From contig JAUWBH010000178.1 of assembly GCA_030605085.1 (NCBI GenBank), positions 1 to 12,349 of the forward strand: a stretch of 12,349 nucleotides of DNA. Reading direction: 5' to 3'. The notes under the pieces are model-generated. The model did no database searches. It had not been told where the DNA came from and was given only the letters and a program-made list of their open reading frames with translations. Both the position numbers and the translations under genes were made by a program. Within the stretch, counting starts at the first letter, position 1, and each line of letters begins with the position of its first letter. This document shows, in pieces, positions 1-12,349 of this stretch. The DNA is from Promethearchaeota archaeon. GTDB taxonomy: Archaea > Asgardarchaeota > Lokiarchaeia > Sigynarchaeales > SOKP01.

Positions 1-189
1 TACGAGATGGCAAAATCATTTAATCTTTCTGGTTATGTTGAATGTTCTTCCAAAACCGGCGAAAATGTAGAAAATATCTTTCAATCGATAACTAGCCTAA
101 TGCTAGAAAAAATAGGGTTTTTCAACTCTAATGAATTTAAACAAATAGAAGAGACTACGCAAGAAAAATCTATTTTTTTATTTGATTAA
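1..189 (+). CDS. Rab-like small GTPase, C-terminal part (cut by window edge)
   Basis: This is the last 62 codons of a Ras-superfamily GTPase whose P-loop, switch and G4 regions lie before the window. The frame is open from base 1, and the fragment carries the G5 motif E-C-S-S-K-T-G, equivalent to E-x-S-A-K in Ras, followed by the last helix. It then has a 29-residue polar tail ending in F-L-F-D, with no cysteine and therefore no prenylation signal. Bases 1-205 are about 92% identical by eye to 875-1079, so it is a recent tandem copy of the neighbouring gene and shows what that gene's tail looked like before its nonsense mutation. The first ATG at position 7 is internal and is not the start. 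The family call is confident through the complete paralogues; the cellular role is unknown. Confidence 0.9.
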   Translation, partial: YEMAKSFNLSGYVECSSKTGENVENIFQSITSLMLEKIGFFNSNEFKQIEETTQEKSIFLFD

Positions 190-205
190 TCCTATAGTCT
201 TTAAG
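1..205 (+). repeat. Tandem duplication, copy 1 (pairs with 875-1079)
   Basis: The 205 bases align without gaps to 875-1079 at an offset of 874, with roughly 16 substitutions. The match covers the end of the GTPase gene and the start of its 3' flank. Homology continues in patches through the next intergenic region, so the repeating unit is gene plus promoter, about 870 bp long (start codons 461 and 1329 are 868 apart). Confidence 0.9.
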
Positions 206-436
206 TAATTTTATATATTCTCTACTCAGGCTAAAAAGCATAATGATTAAATGAAAAAATTGAATCTTATAGGATTTAAGGGTACAATGTCCCGTGAAAA
301 AAAGGAATTATAAAATAAAAAGAAAAGGTTTAAATTAACATATTGATTTAATAAAATTCGAGAAGGTAAGTATTTATCTAGAATTTTAAGATTTAAATTA
401 CTCGCATTAGAAAATTATTTGGAAAAAAAATTTAAT

Positions 437-444
437 TATAAAGT
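437..444 (+). promoter_or_regulatory. Candidate TATA box of the second GTPase gene
   Basis: TTATAAAG lies 24 bases before the ATG at 461, and the same octamer sits 26 bases before the ATG of the next unit. With the usual archaeal TATA-to-start distance, transcription would begin at or next to the ATG, giving a leaderless mRNA. No Shine-Dalgarno sequence is visible, which fits. Conservation between diverged copies supports it, but the region is very AT-rich. Confidence 0.5.
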
Positions 445-460
445 AAAGTGTATTAAATAA

Positions 461-982
461 ATGCAAACGCATGATATATTGTTTAAAATCTGTATACTTG
501 GTGACGGTGGCGTTGGAAAGACAACATTAATCAATAAATATCTTAATAATGCTTTCTTAGAAGGCAGTAAAATGACGATTGGAGTAGACTTCCGTATGAA
601 ACAACTCAATATAAATGAAAATATCATAACCTTACAAATTTGGGATTTTGCTGGCGAGGATAGATTCAGATTTCTTTTGCCACATTATATAAGCGGAGCT
701 TCCGGAGGGATTTTTATGTACGATGTTACGCGATATTCTAGCTTAAAAAATTTAAACGGATGGCTAGAAGTCGTTAGGAATGGCACCTATAAAGGTGAAG
801 AACAAATGCCAATATTAGTGGTGGGCGGGAAGGCAGATCTAGAAGAGAAAAGAGCGGTTGATTATAATGATGCTTACGAGATGGCAAAATCATTTAATCT
901 TTCTGGTTATGTTGAATGTTTTTCCAAAACCTGCGAAAATGTAGATAATATATTTCAATCGATAACTAGCCGAATTCTATAA
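461..982 (+). CDS. Rab-like small GTPase with truncated C-terminus
   Basis: This 173-residue Ras-superfamily GTPase is presumably a GTP/GDP switch. It has the P-loop G-D-G-G-V-G-K-T (14-21), switch I T39-I-G-V-D-F (the Rab-type I-G-V-D-F), W-D-F-A-G-E at 61-66, and G4 G-G-K-A-D at 122-126. The G3 position usually Gln (Ras Q61) is Glu66, and the usual G4 Asn is Gly123. Compared with copy 1, a G-to-T change at 980 turns a Glu codon into TAA, so the protein stops after the final helix. The old tail is still open in frame at 983-1063. The G5 motif is also altered: C-F-S-K-T-C instead of C-S-S-K-T-G, changing the Ser equivalent to Ras S145. Truncation plus two G5 changes suggests relaxed selection, although the core GTPase fold is complete. 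No lipidation cysteine is present at the end. Confidence 0.9.
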   Translation: MQTHDILFKICILGDGGVGKTTLINKYLNNAFLEGSKMTIGVDFRMKQLNINENIITLQIWDFAGEDRFRFLLPHYISGASGGIFMYDVTRYSSLKNLNGWLEVVRNGTYKGEEQMPILVVGGKADLEEKRAVDYNDAYEMAKSFNLSGYVECFSKTCENVDNIFQSITSRIL

Positions 983-1079
983 AAAATAGGGTTTTTCAAC
1001 TCTAATGAATTTAAACGAATAGAAGAGACCACGCAAAATAAATCTGCTTTTTTATTTGATTAATCCTATAGTCTTTAAA
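875..1079 (+). repeat. Tandem duplication, copy 2 (pairs with 1-205)
   Basis: This is the second copy of the GTPase 3' segment, matching 1-205. Differences include the stop-creating G-to-T at 980 and the two G5 codon changes. The former 3' coding tail stays open to TAA at 1061-1063, which matches the stop used by copy 1. Confidence 0.9.
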
Positions 1080-1328
1080 AAATTTTGGTACAATTTTTAC
1101 TCAGACTAAAGATTATAATGATTATAGGAAAATTTGAAACATAACTGATTTTAGAGATCTTACTTCCATTGAAAAAAAGGAATTATAAAATATAAAGAAA
1201 AGTTTTAAATTTTCATAATTATTTATTTTAAAAACGAGAAGATAAATATCAGATTAAAATTACTCGTATTATTATTAGAAAATTAAACGGAAATTATTTC
1301 AATTATAAAGTAAAACGCGTTAAAATAA
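983..1328. other. Intergenic region between GTPase units: relic tail plus duplicated promoter region
   Basis: Bases 983-1063 are the untranslated relic of the GTPase tail (26 sense codons and TAA). The rest matches 205-460 in blocks. A 23-base segment at 1170-1192 is identical to 295-317, followed by matching CGAGAAG, AATTACTCG, TAGAAAATTA and AATTATAAAGTAAA segments in the same order. The last contains the candidate TATA box. The block pattern suggests that upstream elements, not only the TATA box, are retained. No other gene is seen. Confidence 0.7.
1303..1310 (+). promoter_or_regulatory. Candidate TATA box of the third GTPase gene
   Basis: TTATAAAG begins 26 bases before the ATG at 1329 and is embedded in AATTATAAAGTAAA, which is shared with the upstream unit. 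A leaderless or nearly leaderless start is expected. Confidence 0.5.
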
Positions 1329-1895
1329 ATGCCAATACATGACTATCTTTTTAAAGTAATTATATGTGGCGATGGTGGCGTTGGTAAAACGACACTTTTA
1401 AATCGGTATGTCTCAGGACTCTTCAACGAAGACAGCAAAATGACGATTGGAGTAGATTTTCGTATGAAACAACTCAAAGTGAATGAAAAGATAGTCACAT
1501 TACAAATTTGGGATTTTGCCGGTGAAGAACGCTTCAGATTTCTTTTACCACATTATCTAACCGGAGCATCAGGGGGGATTTTTATGTACGACATTACTAG
1601 GTACTCTAGCTTAAAGAATTTATACGATTGGATAAAAATAATTAGAAATGGTATCGAAAAAGTTGAAGATCAAATACCAATACTAATGGTAGGGGGGAAA
1701 GCAGATCTCAAGGAGAACAGATCAATTGAATATATAGACGCTTACGAGTTGGCAAAATCATTTGATTTATCAGGATATCTTGAATGTTCATCTAAAACGG
1801 GTGAAAATGTAGAAAAGATATTCCATTCGATAACTATTTCGATGCTGGAAAAAGTAGGATTCCTTGAACCTATTTTTGAAATAGTACCTATTTAA
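1329..1895 (+). CDS. Rab-like small GTPase (third tandem copy)
   Basis: This is a 188-residue Ras-superfamily GTPase and the best-preserved complete member of the array. It has P-loop G-D-G-G-V-G-K-T at 14-21, T39-I-G-V-D-F at switch I, W-D-F-A-G-E-E-R-F at 61-69 (Rab-like W-D-T-A-G-Q-E-R-F with Gln replaced by Glu), G4 V-G-G-K-A-D at 121-126 (Asn replaced by Gly), and an intact G5 E-C-S-S-K-T-G at 152-158. Its C-terminus (V-G-F-L-E-P, then hydrophobic residues) differs from the copy 1 tail, yet a decayed version of that tail and 3' flank is recognisable downstream at about 1975-2016. No C-terminal cysteine suggests it is not prenylated. It faces the minus-strand hydrolase tail to tail. GTPase identity is sure; partner and pathway are unknown. 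Confidence 0.95.
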   Translation: MPIHDYLFKVIICGDGGVGKTTLLNRYVSGLFNEDSKMTIGVDFRMKQLKVNEKIVTLQIWDFAGEERFRFLLPHYLTGASGGIFMYDITRYSSLKNLYDWIKIIRNGIEKVEDQIPILMVGGKADLKENRSIEYIDAYELAKSFDLSGYLECSSKTGENVEKIFHSITISMLEKVGFLEPIFEIVPI

Positions 1896-1974
1896 TTTCT
1901 CTTAAAGATTCTCTACTTATTCTCTGTTCATTTCTCTTTTTTATATTCGTTTCATCTTGATTTTTCTTAATTTC

Positions 1975-2016
1975 TTCAAATAAAAATCTTATTTGATAAT
2001 TCCTATTGTCTTTAAA
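1975..2016 (+). repeat. Decayed 3' tail block of the GTPase repeat
   Basis: The stretch from TTCAAATAAAAATC to GTCTTTAAA resembles the end of copies 1 and 2 (AAAAATCT, then TTATTTGATTAATCCTATAGTCTTTAA at 167-205), with a few indels. It lies about 80 bases after the third copy's own stop, so this copy lost its ancestral tail through insertion and frame decay. The block runs into the last codons of the minus-strand hydrolase, whose TAA (2012-2014) falls inside it. Confidence 0.5.
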
Positions 2017-2899
2017 TATAACCGCTACTTTTCAAGCCAATAATAAGCCCATTAACAATCCATTTTAAACCAATTATATTGTCTTTCGTGTGAATTTTAG
2101 AATTTGGAATAAACTTGCTGTGGTACTTAGATGTTATATAATCACGTGAGTGACTTTCGCTATACCATTGAATAATTGATTCTTTTATTTTATAATGTAG
2201 GACTTCCATCTCATTAATTATTTTTTCAAAGTCTTCTCCCTCCCATACACCAAAGTGGGATAAAGAAATGGAAATTAATTTATTTTTCATCTTTCTTAAT
2301 TTTTCAAAAGTCTTCAAGAGTTCTCTCTCATTAAAATCGGGTGGCATAAAAGTAGGACTAAGAGTCTCACGATCGTACCTATTTATAATAGCATCGCCAG
2401 TAAAAATGTTTTTATTTTCTTTGTCATAAACGGCAACATGATCTTGAGTATGCCCAAAAAAATTGAAAATTTCTAATTCTAAACCATTTAAGTCTATGTT
2501 ATCTCCTTCTTTTAATGGCGTCACATTTTCTACTGGATTAACCTCAAATCCTTCGTTCATTTTTTCGGGATTTTTTAAGTTGTTTATACCTCTTTCTGAA
2601 GCCAACACCTCAATTTCAGTTTCTTTATTTAAAGCTTTTAATCTTTCAACACCTTGGATATGATCAAAATGAGAATGAGTCAATAGCAATTTATGGATGG
2701 GATGAATACCATATTCTTTAATTTTTTTTACAACTTTTCTCGCTGCTAATGCTACTCCCGCATCAATCATCATTCGCATACCATTATTTTCAATTACATA
2801 AATGGCCATATTTCCTTTCATCCTAAATAATTGTCCATCTATAAGATAAGTACTATCATTAAATTTACCTTCAGAGTTTATAAATACCATTATTTTCAC
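2012..2899 (-). CDS. Metallo-beta-lactamase-fold hydrolase
   Basis: This 295-residue MBL-fold metal-dependent hydrolase is probably cytoplasmic, as no signal peptide is seen. Zinc ligands are visible in order: H-S-H-F-D-H at 75-80 (H-x-H-x-D-H), His150 in F-F-G-H-T-Q-D-H, Asp169 in I-F-T-G-D-A, and His215 in L-S-H-F-G. That is a complete two-metal set of the glyoxalase II-like type. The C-terminal 70 residues are helical and resemble an extra substrate-facing cap. The substrate cannot be told from sequence: thioester, lactone, phosphodiester and others all occur in this superfamily. The chosen start is GTG at 2899; an ATG three codons later (2890) is equally possible, and neither has a clear ribosome site. 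It is monocistronic and divergent from the fourth GTPase. Confidence 0.92.
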   Translation of the reverse strand: MKIMVFINSEGKFNDSTYLIDGQLFRMKGNMAIYVIENNGMRMMIDAGVALAARKVVKKIKEYGIHPIHKLLLTHSHFDHIQGVERLKALNKETEIEVLASERGINNLKNPEKMNEGFEVNPVENVTPLKEGDNIDLNGLELEIFNFFGHTQDHVAVYDKENKNIFTGDAIINRYDRETLSPTFMPPDFNERELLKTFEKLRKMKNKLISISLSHFGVWEGEDFEKIINEMEVLHYKIKESIIQWYSESHSRDYITSKYHSKFIPNSKIHTKDNIIGLKWIVNGLIIGLKSSGYI

Positions 2900-3217
2900 A
2901 TAAGTTTTTTAATTATAGCTTTATGAAGATAACTTAAAATTTTTTATGCTAATAGGCTTTTTTAAATAAGACGCTTAGCTAGATTGATATTTGCAAATTA
3001 TAGTTAGAAAAGGTAGAAATCTTTATTTACCTAATTTTAAAAGAACATCTAAAATATTGTTAAAAAATTAGTTAGCTCATCGAAAAATATTAATTTTATA
3101 AAAAATTTTAAAAAATATTATTAGACATTTTAGGTATATTGAATACAAAAATTATAAATAAGATAATTATATATTTATTAATAGAATTAAAACAAAGGTT
3201 TTGAGGGCTTTTAGTTA
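2900..3217. other. Divergent AT-rich intergenic region
   Basis: This 318-base region separates the minus-strand hydrolase from the plus-strand GTPase and must hold both promoters. The plus strand has TTATAAATA at 3152-3160, about 58 bases before the GTPase ATG, and a G-A-G-G-G ribosome-site candidate at 3203-3207. No coding or RNA structure is evident. Confidence 0.6.
3152..3160 (+). promoter_or_regulatory. Candidate TATA box of the fourth GTPase gene
   Basis: TTATAAATA would place transcription start near 3180, leaving a leader of about 38 bases that contains GAGGG at 3203-3207, 10 bases before the ATG. This leadered arrangement differs from the leaderless layout of the tandem copies. The AT-rich background lowers confidence. 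Confidence 0.35.
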
Positions 3218-3769
3218 ATGCAAAAGCTAGACGGAATTTTTAAGATCTGTATATTTGGTGATGGTGGAGTAGGCAAGACCACACTTGTCAATAAATACCT
3301 TACGGGCGTATTCGTAGGAGATACTGGAATTACTATTGGAGTTGATTTCCACCTAAAAAAAATTAAGTTAAAGGATAAACTTGTAAAACTACAAATATGG
3401 GATTTTGCGGGAGAAGAGCGCTTCAGATTTCTTTTACCTAGCTACGCAAGAGGGGCTGTTGGAGGGATTTTTATGTACGATATTACTCGATTTTCTAGCT
3501 TTAGAAATTTTGCCGAATGGTTGAAAATATTTAGGAATGGATCCATAGAAGCTGAACTTCAAATTCCTATTCCTATTCCTATTTTATTAGTAGGGGGGAA
3601 AGCAGATCTCGAAGATCAGAGATCGGTTCATAGCGAATATGCTTTCGAAATGGCAAGATCCGCCAACTTGTGTGGTTTTGTCGAATGTTCTGCTAAAACC
3701 GGACAAAATGTGGAAAAGATTTTCCAAACAATAGCTCGCAGAATAATGGAATCACAAAAACTAGTTTAA
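3218..3769 (+). CDS. Rab-like small GTPase (diverged paralogue)
   Basis: This 183-residue member of the same family is the most diverged of the four. It has P-loop G-D-G-G-V-G-K-T at 14-21, T39-I-G-V-D-F, W-D-F-A-G-E-E-R-F at 61-69, G4 G-G-K-A-D at 126-130 and a textbook G5 E-C-S-A-K-T-G at 156-162. It shares the Gln-to-Glu G3 change and the Asn-to-Gly G4 change, so these are family traits rather than errors. Relative to its paralogues it carries four extra residues (I-P-I-P) directly before the beta strand leading into G4, made by three perfect ATTCCT repeats. The C-terminus ends R-R-I-M-E-S-Q-K-L-V, short and basic, without a prenylation cysteine. A G-A-G-G-G ribosome-site candidate precedes the ATG, unlike in the tandem copies. 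Its role is unknown. Confidence 0.95.
   Translation: MQKLDGIFKICIFGDGGVGKTTLVNKYLTGVFVGDTGITIGVDFHLKKIKLKDKLVKLQIWDFAGEERFRFLLPSYARGAVGGIFMYDITRFSSFRNFAEWLKIFRNGSIEAELQIPIPIPILLVGGKADLEDQRSVHSEYAFEMARSANLCGFVECSAKTGQNVEKIFQTIARRIMESQKLV
3563..3580 (+). repeat. Hexanucleotide repeat (ATTCCT)3 inside a GTPase gene
   Basis: There are three perfect ATTCCT copies followed by ATT. They encode alternating Ile-Pro and lengthen the protein by four residues compared with the paralogues, which have a single I-P-I at this point. Unit gain or loss here keeps the reading frame. Confidence 0.9.
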
Positions 3770-4295
3770 TTCAAAAAAATTTGAGTGTCTTAATATATTC
3801 CTTTTATTTGAATTTCTATATTTAATTTATATAGATATTTCTTAACAGAAAGATTTAATACTGTCTCATGCGCAAAAACTACGGTCTTATTATTAAGGTC
3901 TTATTTGTTAGAGATTAATAACCATATAGAGAACAAAAGAATTTTAATATAAATTTGGTCAATTAGTAAACTATTAAATTGGTTAAGTGTTGTTCATAGT
4001 TGATGAAATAGTGGAAAAATCGGGACATAATTTAAATTGATATAGTATTTATATATATTTTCTCTAATTTTTCTATTGATTTATAAGAAATTTTAAGACT
4101 CTTTTTTTTTAAATACTTTAAATTTAATTATTTTTTAAATAGCAATACTATCTCAAAATAGTAAGTCTCAATGAAATATAAAAATTAATTTTTTTAAATA
4201 ATAAAGAAATATGCTTTGATCCGAAATTAACAAAATCTTTTTAAATTAATTGAATATTTCATAATAAGTATTAGAAATTAAGTAGGAAGAGGAAA
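3770..4295. other. Long AT-rich intergenic region upstream of the DNA repair operon
   Basis: No gene is seen in these 526 bases. It contains a direct repeat GGTCTTATT (3883-3891 and 3898-3906), a T9 tract at 4102-4110, and a perfect 6-bp inverted repeat TACTAT/ATAGTA (4146-4151 and 4158-4163) with a six-base spacer. Near the herA start are a possible TATA element TTTTAAAT at about 4239-4246 and a purine-rich AGGAAGAGG at 4284-4292. Any of the repeats could be operator sites, but in such AT-rich DNA they could also be chance. Confidence 0.5.
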
Positions 4296-6038
4296 ATGAT
4301 TATAAAAATAAATTCTTTGGTGAGTACCATTGAAATTTTTTACGAAAAATACATACATCTTCACGGATTTATAAAACTTGAAGCAGAAAGCGATGAAAAA
4401 GAGTATATTATAGTAATACAAATATTAAACGAACAAACTATTTTAGATTATGTCTTAACTCGTCAAAAGTTAAAAAATGTTATTATGACCGAATATATTA
4501 AGGCGGAATTAGAATCTGAATTGCAATATGTTATCCAAGGGCGCCCAATAATATGTACAGAAACGGATAAAAAAACTAAAAAGAAGGATTACCATATTCT
4601 TAATGTGTTTTTCTTAATCGAAGATTTAATGGAAAAAAATGTTTTAAAACCTCATTCTATGAAAATTTCAGAAAACCAAAACGATAAACAAGAATATTTA
4701 AAACAAATTTTTACTCCTGATGGAATTTATATGGGGACTTTGGCTTCTGAGTCAAATGTAGAGGTCTATTTTCCATTTAAATATTTAATGTATCATTTTT
4801 TCATAGCAGGAGCAACAGGTATGGGAAAATCTAACTTGAATCAAATATTTATCGATGGACTGTTACAACATAATGCTAATGTAATTTTAAATGGAAAGGG
4901 ACGAAAAGTGTCTATGCTGGCAATAGATATGCATGATGAGTACGCTAGAGGATGCAATAAATATGGCGTGTATCATATTAGTAAAGCCGCAGAACACAGT
5001 AAAGAATTAATAGGAAAATGGTTTTATCTATATCCTAATAAAGGTGTTCCTCCAGCAATGCTTAAAAGTATGGCTGAACCGTGCCTTATCAATTACCAAG
5101 AAATAAAACCGGGAGATCTCTTCGCAACTGGCTCATTTAACGATTTACAGGTTAGTGCGGTATATTCTGCGTATCGCGATAATCCAGCAGAATATATAAA
5201 TAATTTATTATCAGATACTTACGAACCTCCAGGACATCATAGCGAGAAAACGCTAGCTGCTATCAAAAGAAGGTTACATTGGTTAAATTATTCTGAAATG
5301 TTCAAATCCAAAGCTAGTTCTAAACTACCCAAAATTATAAAGAAATTAGATAAAGGGGGTTTAATCATTTTTAATGTCTCAATGATTTCAGATTTAGAAC
5401 AATTCTTATTTAATAGTATTGTGGCAAGAACATTGTTCGATATCAGAATGGCGTTAAAGTCTTCTACAGATTTACCATCTTTCGAAAAAAGATTAAGCAA
5501 TTCTTTGCCTGAACATTTTTTAAATAATTATAAAGATAATCTTCACAAAATTTACATTAAATCAGGAACAGAGATAAAAGATCCGAGTGAAATGCCTGTA
5601 ATAATCTTTACTATTGAAGAGGCTCCTAGTGTTTTGCGACCTGAAATGATGAGATTTAACAATGTGTTTAAAAACATTTCTCGTCAAGGAAGAAAATTTA
5701 ATCTGGCATTAGAAGTTATTTCCCAGCAATATTCTCCAATTGACGATACAATACTGGCAAATATGAATACCGTAATTAATTTACCTTTAAGGTCTGACAA
5801 AGAAAAATCTATAGCAGTAAATACTATGGGTGGAGGAATTCAGCATAGCGACCTTGAATCTTTAACTGGAACTCAGGGTATAGCGTTAATTTCTGGGATA
5901 TGGTTAACCAACTTTCAAAAATTACGCATTCCATTGTATGACGAATATTTTGAAAAAACTTCAAAAAAATTTTACGAAGAATTTGCTAAAAAAATAAAAT
6001 CACAGAGAATTAAACCACCTCCAACAGGACTCTCTTAA
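4296..6038 (+). CDS. herA: HerA-type bipolar DNA translocase/helicase
   Basis: This 580-residue HerA/FtsK-superfamily ATPase forms hexamers that work with the NurA nuclease in DNA end resection. Residues 1-150 fit the N-terminal HAS-barrel region. The ATPase core has Walker A G-A-T-G-M-G-K-S (172-179), the HerA D-x-H-x-E-Y element as D-M-H-D-E-Y (211-216), a Walker B-like I-I-F-T-I-E-E-A (436-443), and the conserved region S-R-Q-G-R-K-F-N-L (462-470) with the probable sensor or arginine-finger Arg, followed by S-Q-Q (476-478). Walker B continues E-E-A-P where most relatives have E-E-A-H. It is the first gene of the herA-nurA-mre11-rad50 set, 24 bases ahead of nurA. AGGAAGAGG just before the ATG supports this start. 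Confidence 0.93.
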   Translation: MIIKINSLVSTIEIFYEKYIHLHGFIKLEAESDEKEYIIVIQILNEQTILDYVLTRQKLKNVIMTEYIKAELESELQYVIQGRPIICTETDKKTKKKDYHILNVFFLIEDLMEKNVLKPHSMKISENQNDKQEYLKQIFTPDGIYMGTLASESNVEVYFPFKYLMYHFFIAGATGMGKSNLNQIFIDGLLQHNANVILNGKGRKVSMLAIDMHDEYARGCNKYGVYHISKAAEHSKELIGKWFYLYPNKGVPPAMLKSMAEPCLINYQEIKPGDLFATGSFNDLQVSAVYSAYRDNPAEYINNLLSDTYEPPGHHSEKTLAAIKRRLHWLNYSEMFKSKASSKLPKIIKKLDKGGLIIFNVSMISDLEQFLFNSIVARTLFDIRMALKSSTDLPSFEKRLSNSLPEHFLNNYKDNLHKIYIKSGTEIKDPSEMPVIIFTIEEAPSVLRPEMMRFNNVFKNISRQGRKFNLALEVISQQYSPIDDTILANMNTVINLPLRSDKEKSIAVNTMGGGIQHSDLESLTGTQGIALISGIWLTNFQKLRIPLYDEYFEKTSKKFYEEFAKKIKSQRIKPPPTGLS

Positions 6039-6062
6039 AAATTAAAATAATAAGTTTTTAGG

Positions 6063-7276
6063 GTGAAAAGAATTTCATTTAATTTTGAGTTTGAATTGAT
6101 TTCATTAGACGAGTCTTTAGAGAAAAGACCAAAAGATTCACAAGATCAAATAATTAGAAAATTTAGAGAACACATTAAAAATCGAATTACTAGTTGGACT
6201 AAAGATGAAAAAATTGAATTAGAAACAGATAAATTTGATACGGACGATCCACTACAAAACGCGGGGACATTATGTAATGAAATGAGGTATCAAATTATAA
6301 GTGAGGAGTTTAGAGAATATGTACATAAAGGTTTTAAAGTCATTGGTTTTGATGAAAGTCAATACACCAATATGGGAACATATGGTATATTAGCGTCCTT
6401 TAAATTCGGTGAATGTCAATTAACCTTTAAAAATGGAAGATATGATAAAAGAATAATTATGTATAAACCGATTCAAGCTTATATTGAGGACAATGTTCAT
6501 AAACTCATTATTTATAAAGATGTCATTACTAATTTTATAAATACTTTAAAAAAAGAGTTTTATATCGGAAGTTTAAAGTACAATATTGATTTAATTGAAA
6601 ATTGGTTCCAAAAAACATATAAAAAAAAATAGACGAATATATAAAAGCTCATAACTATTATTATCCTTCCATTGGGCATGTAATTGATAGAATAAGAATT
6701 GCTGATGAGATAATAAAAACTTTAATTAGAATTAGAGACGAAAGTAACTGGGGTGAAAACGAAGAAGTGATATTTCTAGGTGATGGTATCCATATGTTTC
6801 GGCAACACATATTTCCTCCGGTAAGCTTTACCAATTTTTTTTATAATTTCATTCAGACTTACAATATAAAATATTATAGTTTCTCTAAACAAAGTAGGCT
6901 AAGGGATGCGCAAGGAAATTTTATTTTATTATATTGGGATGATCAAATAAAAAAGGATCCATTTATTGTTGAATTGCCTGACATTCCGAAATATACAAAA
7001 AGCTGGACTTATATGATAAGGCTTATTGAAGATAGTCCAGCGTTAAGATTTGACATTCCAGATTTTTTATCAACCCAACAAGCTATTAAAATTTTACGAA
7101 ATTTAATTCCATATGCTCCTCGTGGATATCCGTTATGCCTCATATGTGCTCACGAGACAAGTTCTTTATTGACAATAGAAAAAACAAATTTTGAAAGTAA
7201 ATTTATGGAACTGCAGTATGACCCAGAAACTAAAAAATATATGTCAGTTCGAAGGCATAAGGTTTTATTATATTAA
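6063..7276 (+). pseudogene. nurA: NurA nuclease, interrupted by a -1 frame change at an A9 tract
   Basis: Two consecutive open frames together make one NurA: 6063-6632 (GTG start, 189 codons, stop TAG 6630-6632), and a -1 frame running from 6629 to 7276. The switch lies in A9 at 6621-6629. Re-reading from 6629 gives K-K-K-I-D-E-Y and continues without stops, for a 404-residue protein of normal NurA length. Metal-site motifs are split across the junction: G-F-D-E-S at 95-99 (Asp97) in the first part, and F-L-G-D-G-I (Asp241), S-F-S-K-Q-S-R, and G-Y-P-L-C-L-I-C-A-H (His364) in the second. NurA trims DNA ends in complex with HerA. The -1 shift register is A_AAA_AAA followed directly by TAG, which suits recoding or polymerase slippage; one missing A in the assembly would look the same. 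It is marked as interrupted, not as proven dead. Confidence 0.8.
6621..6629 (+). other. A9 slippery tract at the nurA frame junction
   Basis: Nine A residues are read as three Lys codons in the upstream frame and are immediately followed by TAG. Bases 6623-6629 form the heptamer A_AAA_AAA in the correct register for tandem -1 slippage. One added A would restore the downstream frame at 6629. No strong downstream hairpin is evident by eye. Confidence 0.75.
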
Positions 7277-7317
7277 ACTAAATTAGTAAATTAAAATAAA
7301 CCAAATAGGTAAGTGTT

Positions 7318-8625
7318 ATGGTTAAAATAATTCATATGTCAGACACACACCTAGGGTATAGAGCCAAAAGAGGGGCCATAAATAAATGGGCTATTGATAA
7401 TTATTCAAGACCTTACGAGCAAGAAATCTACGATACTTTTAAAAAGGTTATGGAAGATATTTCTAATCTAAAGGATATTGATTTTGTAGTTCATTGTGGT
7501 GATATGTTCCACATTCCTTCTTTAAATTTAACTTATACCCCTCCAGAACCAGCAAGAAGGGCCTTAATAGAAGGATTAGAAATCTTCTTTACGAATACTA
7601 TCAATAAAGTTCCTTTCATATATATTGAGGGAAATCATGGCGTATTCCGTAAATACGACTATACTCCATTTGAATCACACATCAATAAAGAAAATTATCC
7701 AAATATTTTCTATTATAAAGAAAAGGACTTAATAAATTCTATTAAATCTGATAAACCTTTAAATATAGAATTTAAGGAAAAAAGAGTTAGGTTTTACTTA
7801 TTTCCTTATTTCGAGTTTAATAGCTTTGAGGGCTATAAATCTATTTACGATAAATGGGTGGAAAATCAAAAACCACCTAATGATGATTATATAAATATCG
7901 CAGTTGCTCATGGTTCAAAATTGGATGGAACATTACATGAAAAAGTTAGGAGCGACGATTTTGGGTACGATTATATCGCTCTTGGGCACGAACATGGTTT
8001 AAGAGAAGAGTCAAGAAATCGATATTACAGCGGTAGTTTGTTGCCATTGAATTTTAAAGAAATAATTGAAAAACAAGGTTATTTAATCGTAAACATTGAT
8101 GACTCTACAAAAAGATTGAAGGTTGAAAAAGTGTTTACAGATATATTGCTTAAAAGACCTTTTTCTTTAAATGTAATGGATATATCTCCACAAGATACTT
8201 CAGCAGAATTAAGAAATAAGATATTAAATAAACTTAGGAAATTTACATCCAAAAAAGGATTTAACTCAATGACATCGGCAAGAGTTAAAATTAATTTTAA
8301 AGGAGAATTTACATTTAATAAAATCTGGCAAATTAATGATACTATGTCTAAAATAAGAAGGGAGTGCTTTTCTGAGACAGAAAAGTATAATATAATGCAA
8401 TTAATTTGGAAAATCTCGAACATTTCTAAATATTTTGAAGACGATATTAGTTCGGGAAGGATTATTGATTATATTTTGAAAAATCCAAGTGAAGAATTTA
8501 AACAATTTGTAAACGAAAAACTAAGCGACGAAGAATCTGAGTTTGACGTTGAAAAATTAACCCAATTTGGGATAAAAACCATAAATTACGCTCTGAAAAT
8601 TATGGATAAGGAAAAGGAGGTTTAA
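7318..8625 (+). CDS. mre11: Mre11 DNA double-strand-break repair nuclease
   Basis: This 435-residue calcineurin-like phosphoesterase with 3'-5' exonuclease and endonuclease roles forms a complex with Rad50. The five phosphoesterase motifs are in order: S-D-T-H-L-G at 8-13 (Asp9, His11), C-G-D-M-F-H at 60-65 (Asp62), E-G-N-H-G at 104-108 (Asn106, His107), V-A-H-G at 196-199 (His198) and G-H-E-H at 223-226. The third motif is G-N-H-G rather than the usual G-N-H-D. The segment between motifs I and II is longer than in many archaeal homologues. The C-terminal 150 residues would hold the capping and Rad50-binding regions. AGGTAAG at 7307-7313 precedes the ATG. It lies 41 bases after nurA and 6 bases before rad50, consistent with one operon. 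Confidence 0.95.
   Translation: MVKIIHMSDTHLGYRAKRGAINKWAIDNYSRPYEQEIYDTFKKVMEDISNLKDIDFVVHCGDMFHIPSLNLTYTPPEPARRALIEGLEIFFTNTINKVPFIYIEGNHGVFRKYDYTPFESHINKENYPNIFYYKEKDLINSIKSDKPLNIEFKEKRVRFYLFPYFEFNSFEGYKSIYDKWVENQKPPNDDYINIAVAHGSKLDGTLHEKVRSDDFGYDYIALGHEHGLREESRNRYYSGSLLPLNFKEIIEKQGYLIVNIDDSTKRLKVEKVFTDILLKRPFSLNVMDISPQDTSAELRNKILNKLRKFTSKKGFNSMTSARVKINFKGEFTFNKIWQINDTMSKIRRECFSETEKYNIMQLIWKISNISKYFEDDISSGRIIDYILKNPSEEFKQFVNEKLSDEESEFDVEKLTQFGIKTINYALKIMDKEKEV
8615..8621 (+). promoter_or_regulatory. Strong ribosome binding site for rad50, inside the mre11 end
   Basis: AGGAGGT overlaps the last codons of mre11, ten bases before the GTG at 8632. It is the strongest Shine-Dalgarno match in the window and supports the non-ATG start of rad50. 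It also suggests translational coupling of the two subunits. Confidence 0.75.
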
Positions 8626-8631
8626 AAAACC

Positions 8632-10725
8632 GTGAAAATAACTAGACTTGAATTTGAGAACTTTATGGGCTATAAAAGGTTGAGATTACCCCAAAATAAC
8701 GGGGTACTCCCAAATGGATTGATTTTGATTAGCGGAAAGAACTCTTACGGAAAATCCACTATTCTTGAAGGAATTTTAATCGCATTTTTTGGACCGGGGA
8801 TAATTTTAGGGAGAAATCAAGATTCTTTTATAACTTATAACCAAGATAAAGCAAAACTCTATGTCTATTTTACCCTTGATAATGTGAAATATTACATTTT
8901 TAGAACTTGGAAGAGACAAGGTAGTGCTAGCTCTAGGCTTTTTAGATACGATAATAAATCTCAGAAATATTTAGAAGTTAAAAAGTTTAATATTGAAAAG
9001 TTTTTTGAAATTTCGAAAGAACAAGCAATGAATACCGTATTTGTGAGGCAAGGAGAGGTAGAAGAACTAGCTAATAAAAGGGGTGCAAAACTAAGAGATA
9101 TGATTATAGATTTATTTCGTCTCAACATCATTGACGATTCGCTAAAGTATTTAGATACAGAATTAAAATCGTTTAAAATCGAAAAATCGAAATTAGAAAA
9201 ATCGAGAGTACCTGTAGAAAGAATTGAAGAAGATGTTAAGAGAATCAATCAACAAAACGAAGAAAATAAGAAATTGATTTCCCACGATGAAATTACTATT
9301 AATGAGTATAAAACGAAGTTTAAAAATCTTCCATCAGAAGAACTAATATCTAATTTAGAGAACATGTATAAAGAGAGCGAAGTGATTGAAGGTTTGTTTA
9401 AATCGTATAAACATGATTTTGAAGAAAAAATTAAAAAAACCGATATAAAATTAGAAAATTTTACAACACCAGAAAAGATTGCAACCTTACTTGGTTCTTT
9501 AAAAAAAAACAAAAAAGAAATTGAAACCAAAAAGAAAGAATTGGAAGAAAAAAGAAAAGCAACAATTAAAGGTATGGGAATAACAAAAGGACGGATTGAT
9601 GATATTAAGAGTAAAATCGACAAAATGAAAATAAGTTTAACATTTCAGAAAAAAGATGGAAAAGAGATTGCCTTATGCCCCACTTGCCAAAGTGAGCTCA
9701 CAATGGACCACTATAATTCCATTACTCAAGGGTTCAACCGAGATCTTGAAACTAATCAAAATAAATTGCAGGATATCACTCAATTAATAGAAAAATCCGA
9801 ACTAGACATTAAACCATATCAGGATAAATTAGATAATATCATTAAAAAAAAAGGGATAGTTGAAAGCTTGAAAGATGACTTTGAGAATTATCAGAAACAC
9901 GAAAAAGAATCAATGCAAATCCAAAATAGTATCAATGATTTTTTAACGAAACACCGAAAATTGTTTAAAGATTCGAGTCCTGAAGACATTAAAAGCCTAT
10001 CTAGCAAAATTGTAAAATTAAATCAAAATATTGAATCAATTAATAGAGAACTCTTACAATTACAAGAAAATCTTACCTCTAATAAAAAACGCATAGAAGA
10101 ATTGCTCGAAGAAATCGAAAAGATGAAAGAACTGGAGAAAAAAATTGGAGAAATCGAAATAAATATTGATCACGCCACCAAAGCAAAAGAATTCGTCCGC
10201 CGATTTGTCACTGAGTACATGGTTGCGAAGCGCCTTGTAAAAAATATTGCGTTAATGACCGATAAGTACATTAAAAGTTTTACATCTGGTCAATATAGTG
10301 ACATACTCTTAGAAGAAACAGGAACTACAAAAACAGGACTTTCCCTTAGAATTAGAAATAGTTTTAACAATCAAGATGAATCTATAGAAGTCCTTTCTGG
10401 AGGCGATCGTACAGCCTTGGGAATGGCCTTAAGGCTAGCAATCAGCGAATTAATGAGTAAAATTCGACCAACTAAAGATTCGCCAAAAAGAAACCCGAAA
10501 ATAGATTTTCTTTTGCTAGACGAACCTTTAGCCGCTCTGGATGAAACTCGTCGCGAAAGAGTATTAAAATATTTAATAAAGTCAAAAGCGTTTTCTCAAA
10601 TTTTTCTTATAACGCATACAGCAATTCCTGCAGAACTTCAAATGCACAAAATTATTGTCGAAAAAGATCATTCTACGGGTATTAGTAGCGCTAGATTTGA
10701 AAAACAAAATTTAATTCTGTCTTAA
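8632..10725 (+). CDS. rad50: Rad50 SMC-like ATPase
   Basis: This 697-residue Rad50 is the ATP-driven DNA-tethering partner of Mre11. N-terminal lobe: Walker A G-K-N-S-Y-G-K-S-T (35-43) and Q-loop F-V-R-Q-G-E (137-142, Gln140). Two coiled-coil arms (about 170-340 and 360-530), rich in Lys and Glu, flank the zinc hook C-P-T-C (349-352). C-terminal lobe: signature V-L-S-G-G-D-R (587-593), Walker B F-L-L-L-D-E-P (626-632), D-loop A-L-D (635-637) and His662 in I-T-H-T. The Walker A has S-Y where most Rad50 proteins have G-S or G-A. Length is below the roughly 850-900 usual in archaea, so the arms are short while both ATPase lobes are complete. The GTG start is fixed by a strong ribosome site. It is the last gene of the repair operon. 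Confidence 0.96.
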   Translation: MKITRLEFENFMGYKRLRLPQNNGVLPNGLILISGKNSYGKSTILEGILIAFFGPGIILGRNQDSFITYNQDKAKLYVYFTLDNVKYYIFRTWKRQGSASSRLFRYDNKSQKYLEVKKFNIEKFFEISKEQAMNTVFVRQGEVEELANKRGAKLRDMIIDLFRLNIIDDSLKYLDTELKSFKIEKSKLEKSRVPVERIEEDVKRINQQNEENKKLISHDEITINEYKTKFKNLPSEELISNLENMYKESEVIEGLFKSYKHDFEEKIKKTDIKLENFTTPEKIATLLGSLKKNKKEIETKKKELEEKRKATIKGMGITKGRIDDIKSKIDKMKISLTFQKKDGKEIALCPTCQSELTMDHYNSITQGFNRDLETNQNKLQDITQLIEKSELDIKPYQDKLDNIIKKKGIVESLKDDFENYQKHEKESMQIQNSINDFLTKHRKLFKDSSPEDIKSLSSKIVKLNQNIESINRELLQLQENLTSNKKRIEELLEEIEKMKELEKKIGEIEINIDHATKAKEFVRRFVTEYMVAKRLVKNIALMTDKYIKSFTSGQYSDILLEETGTTKTGLSLRIRNSFNNQDESIEVLSGGDRTALGMALRLAISELMSKIRPTKDSPKRNPKIDFLLLDEPLAALDETRRERVLKYLIKSKAFSQIFLITHTAIPAELQMHKIIVEKDHSTGISSARFEKQNLILS

Positions 10726-10760
10726 GTCAATTCCATAATCTCTTCTTATTAAGGAAGTTA

Positions 10761-10766
10761 TTTTTT
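10761..10766 (+). terminator. Possible T-tract terminator after rad50
   Basis: A T6 run lies 36 bases after the rad50 stop, behind CTTCTTATTAAGGAAG, which can fold weakly. Archaeal termination often uses such T tracts, but T runs are common in this DNA. Confidence 0.3.
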
Positions 10767-10779
10767 AGTATAAAAATGT

Positions 10780-10884
10780 TTATTTATTGTTTACTATTTC
10801 AATAAGCATATTTGCGTTATCCCATCGTCTTAAGATCTTAATACATACTCCAAGTAGCTCTGCGGCAATCCCAATCGAATACAT
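10780..10884 (-). pseudogene. Helix-turn-helix remnant, IS607 TnpA/MerR-like N-terminus
   Basis: This minus-strand frame of 34 codons begins M-Y-S-I-G-I-A-A-E-L-L-G-V and continues with I-L-R-R-W-D-N. That matches the start of IS607-family serine recombinases (TnpA) and related MerR-type helix-turn-helix domains, typically Y-S-I-G-E-A-A-x-L-L-G-V-S-x-x-T-L-R-R-W-D. Two helix positions are degraded (Ile for Glu, Cys for Ser). Similarity stops right after the recognition helix and a TAA follows, with no recombinase catalytic domain downstream and no tnpB nearby. It is most likely the last piece of a decayed insertion sequence. A small stand-alone DNA-binding protein is the alternative, but 34 residues is too short for a stable MerR domain. 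Confidence 0.55.
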
Positions 10885-11033
10885 AAAATAAATACTTAAG
10901 CGAAAAATAATAAAACTTTGAATATTGAAAGTTCTTATTAATTTTTATAGTGTCCAGATTTGTAGGGAATTTTTGAAACTATGATTAACCCTTTTGTATC
11001 CAAATACAATTCAAAATAATCACAATATTAAGA

Positions 11034-11311
11034 ATGGATAATACTCTTACGGAAAAAATAGTTGATTGTAATATTTTTCTCTCGTTTATTTCACTACATG
11101 TTCTTGAATCAGAAAATACGCAGGATGAAATCCAATTCGCTATAAACGAAAAAAAACATTCCTAGCCATTTACTTTAAACAAACGGAACTTTCTCCTGGT
11201 TTAAAAATGAGAATGAGAAGAATTCAAGGGATTCAAAAATATGAGATGGATAATGATCGGTTTTATACAAAACTAATAAGCGAAATTACTCGAATGCTTA
11301 GAGTACAATAA
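11034..11311 (+). pseudogene. TIR-domain protein fragment with -1 frame change
   Basis: An ATG frame (11034-11165) and a -1 frame running on from 11156 to TAA at 11309-11311 join into about 92 residues that read like the second half of a TIR domain. The features are an I-x-D-C-x-I-F-L-S-F-I-S strand, then L-E-S-E-N-T-Q-D-E-I-Q-F-A with the position of the TIR Glu retained, then F-L-A-I-Y-F-K-Q-T-E-L-S-P-G-L and I-Q-G-I-Q-K-Y-E-M. The N-terminal strand and loops of a full TIR domain (about 130-150 residues) are not found upstream: a stop at 10986 closes this frame and other frames show nothing similar. The frame switch is in A8 (11149-11156). TIR proteins act as NAD-consuming or scaffold domains in defence and signalling; this one looks truncated and probably inactive. 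Confidence 0.6.
11149..11156 (+). other. A8 tract at the TIR frame junction
   Basis: GAA AAA AAA CAT TCC TAG is the upstream frame. Bases 11150-11156 form A_AAA_AAA in the right register for a -1 shift, after which the TIR-like sequence continues as T-F-L-A-I-Y-F. One added A would also restore it. This is the same configuration as at the nurA junction. Confidence 0.65.
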
Positions 11312-11315
11312 AACA

Positions 11316-11414
11316 TCAATAAAACAACTTTAATTTTTCAATTTTATCCTTAAATTTCTTTCGTTCTAAATTTTCTTTTTCTAAAATCCCAGTTGAGATA
11401 TCAACCAAATTCAT
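11316..11414 (-). other. Tiny open frame of uncertain status
   Basis: Thirty-two minus-strand codons from an ATG at 11414 encode a Lys/Glu-rich helical segment (G-I-L-E-K-E-N-L-E-R-K-K-F-K-D-K). Its composition is protein-like, but there is no ribosome site, no known motif and no conservation evidence. It may be the end of another decayed gene in this remnant-rich stretch, or chance. Confidence 0.2.
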
Positions 11415-11497
11415 TCAACATTATAAGATAGTCCTTTAAAAAAAATTATAAAAAACAAATTCTTTAACATATTATTAAATATAGTTATTGAATAACT

Positions 11498-11671
11498 ATG
11501 TCTGATAAAGATCCTTATATTTTCTGTTTCATGGCTCGTAAAAGTCAACCTTGTGTAAAAAGTAAAGTAGCCAAAAAACATTTAAAATATTACGAGTGTG
11601 AGAAATGTATTTGGCGTATTTCGTCCGAAGATCCTCGCCATTTAAATTCTTTAGAAAGAAAGAATATATAA
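11498..11671 (+). CDS. Small Cys-rich, probably zinc-binding protein
   Basis: This 57-residue protein has Cys10, Cys19, and a C-E-K-C knuckle at 34-37 preceded by a basic helix (V-A-K-K-H-L-K-Y-Y-E). Four cysteines in a C-x8-C-x14-C-x2-C layout suggest a single small zinc site. About a quarter of the residues are basic, so nucleic-acid binding is possible but not shown. The start is ATG at 11498; an AT-rich TATA-like stretch around 11472-11481 fits a leaderless transcript, and no Shine-Dalgarno is visible. The opposite strand is also open here (11529-11717), but it lacks any motif and the Cys pattern favours this strand. I do not recognise a named family. It lies between the remnant region and the structured RNA island. 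Confidence 0.6.
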   Translation: MSDKDPYIFCFMARKSQPCVKSKVAKKHLKYYECEKCIWRISSEDPRHLNSLERKNI

Positions 11672-11785
11672 AAAATATGGAGACAAAATCAATAACATTT
11701 ATACCAAATATTATCAAATAATAGTATTTTTGTAATTATTTCGAAAATACTACTGTAAATTAGAAAGGTTTTACACTATAGACGC

Positions 11786-11792
11786 TTAAATA
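11786..11792 (+). promoter_or_regulatory. Candidate TATA box for the structured RNA
   Basis: TTAAATA in GACGCTTAAATAC is centred about 25 bases before 11813, where the first perfect hairpin of the RNA-like island begins. That spacing fits archaeal initiation at the base of the hairpin. Confidence 0.4.
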
Positions 11793-11812
11793 CTTTAACT
11801 CAATATTAATAT

Positions 11813-11977
11813 ATTGAGGAATTCCCTCAATGGTAAAAAAGTTTTCTCGCATCGAGAACGGAAGAGTATAACTGAGAGCCCGTCCAGCGCAGTTCTGGAC
11901 GACGCCCTTTCGGAGTAGAAACGCATTCCCAAATTCCGCAACGGATGATGGGATAGAGGCGTTCGGACTAATGCCGC
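11813..11977 (+). ncRNA. Candidate structured non-coding RNA of unknown family
   Basis: Positions 11844-11977 are about 54% G+C by hand count, against mostly 25-30% elsewhere. Perfect stems follow one another: ATTGAGG/CCTCAAT (11813-11831), TTCTCG/CGAGAA (11844-11858), and CGTCCAG/CTGGACG (11881-11901). A nested arm then pairs AACGC (11920-11924) with GCGTT (11959-11963), TCCC with GGGA, and TCCG with CGGA around a CAA loop. The loop CAGTT (11890-11894) complements AACTG at 11870-11874 and could form a pseudoknot. In an AT-rich archaeon such GC islands usually mark stable RNAs. I could not match it to RNase P, SRP, 5S, tRNA, C/D-box RNA or a riboswitch. The strand is inferred from the TATA placement and could be wrong. 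Confidence 0.55.
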
Positions 11978-12094
11978 AAATAATTCAACAAAACATCGTT
12001 GATAATATTATTTGAAATAATTTGAAGACCATTTTATTCATTTTAATAGTCTGGAGACAAAACTTGGAAACTAAACAAAATAAAAAGAAGGATT

Positions 12095-12108
12095 AAAAAA
12101 AAAAAAAA
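12095..12108 (-). terminator. T14 tract downstream of the histone gene
   Basis: Fourteen A residues on the plus strand read as T14 on the minus strand, beginning 14 bases past the histone stop codon. Long T tracts without a hairpin are typical archaeal transcription terminators. Confidence 0.6.
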
Positions 12109-12121
12109 TTTATATAATAAT

Positions 12122-12331
12122 TTATAAATCTCTTGCTTTTACAGTTTTCCTGTTGTTTGCTTTTGCTCTCGCAATAGCCTTATCGAGTATTGTCATAATA
12201 ATGCTATTAAAACTATCGCCATCGAGAACTCCACTACTAGTATTACATCCCTTGCTTTTGATAAACTCACGAACCTTAGATTTAACAAATAAAGGTTCAG
12301 AACTAGCTTTAGGTTTACCTTTTTTGGCCAT
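12122..12331 (-). CDS. Single histone-fold DNA-binding protein with truncated helix 3
   Basis: This 69-residue protein has a basic N-terminal tail (M-A-K-K-G-K-P-K-A), then helix 1 (about 15-27, L-F-V-K-S-K-V-R-E-F-I), a loop, the long helix 2 (about 40-60, ending A-I-A-R-A-K-A-N-N), and the loop 2 motif R-K-T-V-K-A-R-D-L at the very end. R-K-T-V-x-x-x-D is the histone-fold loop 2 and arginine signature. The chain stops at Leu69, so helix 3 of a canonical archaeal histone is almost absent, as in the short bacterial-type histones. It probably dimerises and binds DNA in the chromosome. Purine-rich GAGGA lies 11 bases before the ATG. The upstream promoter is outside the window. The histone call is good; whether it bends, coats or bridges DNA is not visible. 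Confidence 0.8.
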   Translation of the reverse strand: MAKKGKPKASSEPLFVKSKVREFIKSKGCNTSSGVLDGDSFNSIIMTILDKAIARAKANNRKTVKARDL

Positions 12332-12349
12332 AATTTATTCTTCCTCTTT

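Follow-up and report, generated by a model that had tools for sequence, protein, structure and literature searches.

The window analysed here is positions 1-12,349 of JAUWBH010000178.1, an AT-rich contig (29% GC) of an uncultured Asgard (Promethearchaeota) archaeon. It carries a herA-nurA-mre11-rad50 repair set in which a single gene, nurA, is broken: its reading frame ends directly after a run of nine adenines (A9), and the rest of the gene continues in the -1 frame. The elements of the broken gene are:

6063..6632, plus strand: N-terminal part of nurA, from a GTG start to TAG, 189 aa, with the conserved D97 inside
6621..6629, plus strand: the A9 run, coding for KKK, with A_AAA_AAA in register at 6623-6629
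6630..6632, plus strand: the TAG terminating frame 0
6623..7276, plus strand: the remainder of nurA (C-terminal part), read in the -1 frame and containing D241 and H364, recognised by PF09376 (21.4 bits, cut-off 21) and by homology to relatives

Frame 0 is set by the GTG at 6063, and its stop lies immediately 3' of the A9 run. The -1 frame is shut by a TAA at 6620-6622 and then stays open from 6623 to 7273 (stop at 7274-7276), so an unbroken product would need a switch within the A run. The NurA proteins of four relatives (L001-L004) each align to the window as two pieces that meet at 6623-6629 with 0 residues missing (4/4), the N-terminal part corresponding to residues 5-190 of NurA from L001-L003 and to residues 10-192 of NurA from L004. 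HerA, Mre11 and Rad50 each gave a single unbroken match against the same four genomes (4/4). In the family alignment D97, which lies 5' of the break, and D241 and H364, which lie 3' of it, all occupy invariant or nearly invariant columns. In the structural model of a relative the break falls inside a long helix (residues 169-194), within which the TAG cuts translation, leaving 215 further residues in the -1 frame. Shuffling, which ignores coding, gives an expectation of 0.01 occurrences of the pattern TAYA9TAG per window. The two pieces are consecutive parts of one NurA. A first-pass annotation of the same DNA had described just this, namely a nurA split by a -1 change at an A9 in slippery register, essential motifs in both halves, a -1 frame open from the A run onwards and intact operon neighbours, and its description is confirmed.

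The identity of the gene as nurA is supported by its neighbourhood, an otherwise intact herA-nurA-mre11-rad50 set, and by its fold, which is that of NurA, while the profile matches are marginal. PF09376 recognises the C-terminal piece just above its cut-off, does not match the N-terminal piece, and scores the joined protein at 20.2 bits, just below the cut-off; only 25 of the 82 members of the family set (A1) match it at E <= 0.001. The NCBIfam profile NurA_Sulf matches neither piece of the window, and matches the related protein P0002 far below its cut-off. Compared with the known archaeal NurA of HerA-NurA-Mre11-Rad50 sets, the protein would thus be an Asgard subfamily member with a weak match (20-21 bits, Pfam cut-off 21) and a frame break. 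From the order of the motifs and the aligned ranges we infer that D97 probably corresponds to D58 of Sulfolobus NurA.

The A run has a simple counterpart in the protein. The consensus of the family columns at the site is TYKKKI, and exact KKK occurs in 37 of 81 rows. We read the site at the DNA level in 26 genomes (L005-L030, the first four of which, L005-L008, are the same genomes as L001-L004), leaving out L031 and L032, which are divergent at the site, and L033 and L034, which are weak. KKK was found in 15 of the 26, and 8 of these 15 use AAA throughout, giving an in-frame run of ten adenines, while lysine codon use in the same genes predicts 8.0; the test is a rough one, as related genomes are not independent. 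The ten-A genes lie in about four places of the tree (read from the printed tree), and in the four nearest genomes an AAG breaks the run. The window has nine adenines at the place of the relatives' run, one unit out of frame. An A-rich run therefore follows from coding the TYKKKI consensus, and a long one is ordinary where the protein has KKKI. Judged by codon use, the run appears to be incidental to the coding of three lysines in an AT-rich genome, and not an element that is maintained; a selective origin was considered and is not supported, the observed 8 of 15 agreeing with expectation. In the coding regions of some AT-rich prokaryote genomes, A/T runs above a genome-specific length are avoided (PMC1088944).

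The A9 run is also where a length change would be expected. In a laboratory drift experiment with M.HaeIII, indel frequency rose 2.5-fold per base of repeat, and both indels and their bypass grew with repeat length (PMC3812077). At that rate the A9 run, the longest homopolymer of nurA, would hold 48% of the gene's indel propensity in 0.7% of its length, and the three A9 runs of the window's genes would together hold 32%. A one-unit contraction there is therefore an expected lesion or an expected miscall. The drift case resembles ours in that the indel falls on the longest A run of a gene rich in A and T and some bypass would be expected, and differs in that a homopolymer error in the consensus may account for the window's break; its authors regard slippage by DNA polymerase, RNA polymerase and the ribosome as alike (PMC3812077).

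The break appears to be young. Identity to L001-L004 is 65-67% for the N-terminal half and 68-70% for the C-terminal half of NurA, compared with 70-73% for HerA, 64-65% for Mre11 and 55-57% for Rad50, and the N-terminal half is the less identical one among the relatives themselves too. Of 75 columns conserved in at least 95% of the other 81 rows, 2 carry a different residue in the window, Ile in place of Leu each time; the same style of test on 29 relatives gave 0-3 differences. Both halves are thus as conserved as in relatives, which suggests that the change is recent or is absent from the cell. Judged by this conservation, nurA was under constraint until very recently, or still is.

A survey of 227 genomes of the phylum gave 30 with a nurA match. 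After two weak partial matches (G077, G079) were dropped, no internal stop was found in any of the 28 full-length genomic copies. At the protein level, all 81 proteins related to the joined NurA cross the site in one frame; over residues 181-205, 68 of them are gap-free and the other 13, more distant or divergent, have a gap of one or three residues. A search with the joined protein admits only sequences of 0.55-1.75 times the query length, and half-length proteins are invisible to it, so the two halves were also used as queries of their own. The result was the window's own halves, each a cluster with one member, together with fragments, and no established second split gene. Among the fragments, P0083, P0085, P0086 and P0087 end before the site, P0084 and P0070 extend past it, and P0090 starts past it; P0084 and P0090, which by name come from one source genome, end and begin at the same place in the protein (ES), which suits cuts at contig ends. 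In the tree the window's nurA groups with four genomes (support 99/100) labelled Candidatus Lokiarchaeota or Lokiarchaeia, and some of the nearest NurA proteins carry source names such as Thorarchaeota or Hermodarchaeota. As a baseline for broken repair genes we used rad50 only: 83 of the 227 genomes match it at E <= 1e-60, all 83 without an internal stop; in 80 of them the match covers 642 or more of the 697 positions, and the remaining three begin no more than 37 bases from the first coordinate of their contig. P0089 (discussed below) aside, a single contig is established to carry the break.

We consider it very probable, on these comparisons, that the break is a private one-unit contraction of a KKK-coding A run, carried by the DNA itself or by the consensus alone, and that this nurA was functional until very recently. 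The run coding for Lys-Lys-Lys would be short of one unit either through an error in the consensus or through a recent slippage of DNA polymerase; should the mutation exist in the cell, some full-length NurA may still arise where RNA polymerase or the ribosome slips, unprogrammed, on the same run. Some observations weigh against this reading. The heptamer stands in perfect register with the stop immediately behind it. A 214-aa protein, P0089, which has no start Met and is named partial by its source, starts directly after the same motif. Such partial proteins usually owe their truncation to a contig end, which is the likely cause here as well; no copy closer than 79% identity was found in the 227 genomes, and the copies listed are uninterrupted. 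Finally, protein identity to the nearest relative whose DNA could be read is only about 68%, and no near-identical strain was seen, which leaves room for a recoding signal of recent origin. This last point also qualifies a check proposed at the outset, by which close relatives with an uninterrupted gene would make the break an artefact or a private mutation: the 28 intact copies point that way, at the distance just given.

Whether the contraction lies in the consensus or in the cell is a closer question. A miscalled run length in the contig, with an intact nurA in the cell, has in our estimate nearly an even chance. Both halves are constrained as in relatives, the sole break among the genes compared with relatives falls in one of the three longest coding runs, and NurA is essential in Sulfolobus islandicus (PMC4351679); moreover, for frame transitions that BLASTp validates but that belong to no cluster, Antonov et al. 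expect a sequencing error and not an indel mutation (PMC3711429). On the other hand, both A9 runs of rad50, like several runs of length 7-8 in genes of the window, keep the frame; homopolymers of this sort are therefore not a general weakness of the assembly. A real and recent loss of one base, after which NurA would be either gone or still made in smaller amount through unprogrammed slippage of RNA polymerase or the ribosome, is a serious candidate to which we give somewhat less than an even chance. It agrees with the growth of indels and bypass with repeat length in laboratory drift (PMC3812077), and the contig has other signs of decay (a stop at 980-982 in a Ras-like gene and weak domain fragments at 10726-12121), but neither half of nurA shows decay. 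The essentiality of nurA in S. islandicus (PMC4351679) speaks against this candidate, and makes it more likely that the run was miscalled, that the change is very recent, or that slippage rescues the protein.

The first-pass annotation had also offered regulation of NurA level as a reading, calling the site near-ideal for -1 slippage. A_AAA_AAA at 6623-6629 is indeed an in-register heptamer of the X_XXY_YYZ type at the frame transition, and the -1 frame opens only at the run. However, in-register A_AAA_AAA occurs seven times in the window's genes (two of these in nurA, at the break and at one earlier place, two in rad50, and one apiece in herA, a Ras-like gene and a metallo-beta-lactamase-like gene), and at the other six sites the same open reading frame (ORF) continues in frame. 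A programmed -1 site would be expected to have a stimulatory structure 5-9 bases downstream, or else rare codons or a Shine-Dalgarno-like box upstream. A downstream structure and an upstream Shine-Dalgarno-like box are listed as accessory elements of -1 frameshifting in a review of archaeal recoding (PMC8211752). No stable RNA structure was predicted in four downstream stretches (z 0.45, -0.43, 0.53 and 0.90) or across the site (z 1.79), as compared with shuffles and with pseudoknots not modelled, and no Shine-Dalgarno-like purine box was seen upstream by eye. Scans of the window for tRNA and Rfam families gave no matches. Among viral contigs three stretches fit a pattern, and none coded for a relative. 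Split and slippery site are not conserved among relatives, which is the usual though not a strict criterion, as the split fucA1 gene of Saccharolobus solfataricus P2 and 98/2 lacks such conservation too, and the tract is no more conserved than codon use predicts. Little supports the heptamer as a regulatory device. In the literature on Asgard nurA/herA, archaeal frameshifting and archaeal transcriptional slippage, no Asgard nurA frameshift was found among the titles and abstract openings of the matches listed.

Caution against dismissing programmed frameshifting comes from fucA1 itself, the one proven archaeal case according to that review (PMC8211752), since it likewise has intact relatives. 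As in the window, the P2 gene has an in-register A-rich heptamer with the second part in the -1 frame, and its full-length Sulfolobales relatives have the A stretch changed by one. It differs in its 40-base overlap, tandem rare codons and putative stem-loop, whereas in the window the usable overlap is the A run alone and no stem is predicted (PMC8211752). All told, we regard programmed -1 ribosomal frameshifting or programmed transcriptional slippage as improbable here; that the archaeon would set its NurA level, and hence DNA end resection, through the A run and its stop is, if anything, slightly more improbable. A fission of the gene into two separately translated subunits that assemble into NurA would fit the conservation of both halves, but the break lies inside the helix, and the -1 frame has no ATG, GTG or TTG before the GTG at 6767 (residue 236). 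A restart there would lose the invariant P202, H206, R210, R212, D215, E216 and R223. With no suitable start codon in the -1 frame we rejected fission, to which we give almost no credence. Of the readings first offered, a recent mutation and a miscall fit the evidence, and regulation has little in its favour. The site is an ordinary frame break at a homopolymer, with no positive sign of regulation beyond the heptamer.

The other genes of the repair set, and one gene near the contig end, are:

4296..6038, plus strand: herA, intact, by profile matches and relatives
7318..8625, plus strand: mre11, intact, by profile matches and relatives
8632..10725, plus strand: rad50, intact, with two more A9 runs (9501-9509 and 9844-9852) in slippery register, read through in frame
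12122-12331, minus strand: histone-like gene, 69 aa (NCBIfam archaeal histone 19.6 bits, cut-off 50)

Rad50 is 697 aa long, compared with 703-710 in the four relatives, and the NCBIfam Rad50 profiles that it matches span 872-895 positions; a further match is to an archaea-specific SMC-related protein of 593 positions, and none of these matches reaches its cut-off. Four Ras-like small GTPase genes lie in 1-3769 (1-189, partial; 461-982; 1329-1895; 3218-3769), and the three proteins with both ends in the window are 58-71% identical. The second has an in-frame stop at 980-982 relative to the upstream copy, beyond which the frame stays open to 1060 and codes for a tail closely resembling that of the upstream copy, and SKTCEN stands in place of its SKTGEN motif (461-1063); this gene may be decaying. 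Between rad50 and the histone-like gene, 1.4 kb (10726-12121) hold no ORF longer than 62 aa. Weak matches below the Pfam cut-offs to a MerR-type helix-turn-helix (10780-10881, minus strand, E 0.00066) and a TIR domain (11034-11162, E 0.0032) suggest that this stretch may be gene debris. The histone-like gene has a counterpart in L002 and L003, on the same strand and 69% identical, whose ORF lies about 65 bases beyond the rad50 ORF.

If the nurA site were programmed, archaeal recoding would reach a cellular gene for DNA repair in the lineage closest to eukaryotes, and by the count of the recoding review archaea would have their second demonstrated cellular case (PMC8211752). What the locus offers is a caution: in AT-rich genomes, the loss of one base in Lys-Lys-Lys codons mimics a perfect slippery heptamer followed by a stop, and an expectation from codon use, taken together with relatives, helps to tell such a loss from a programmed site.
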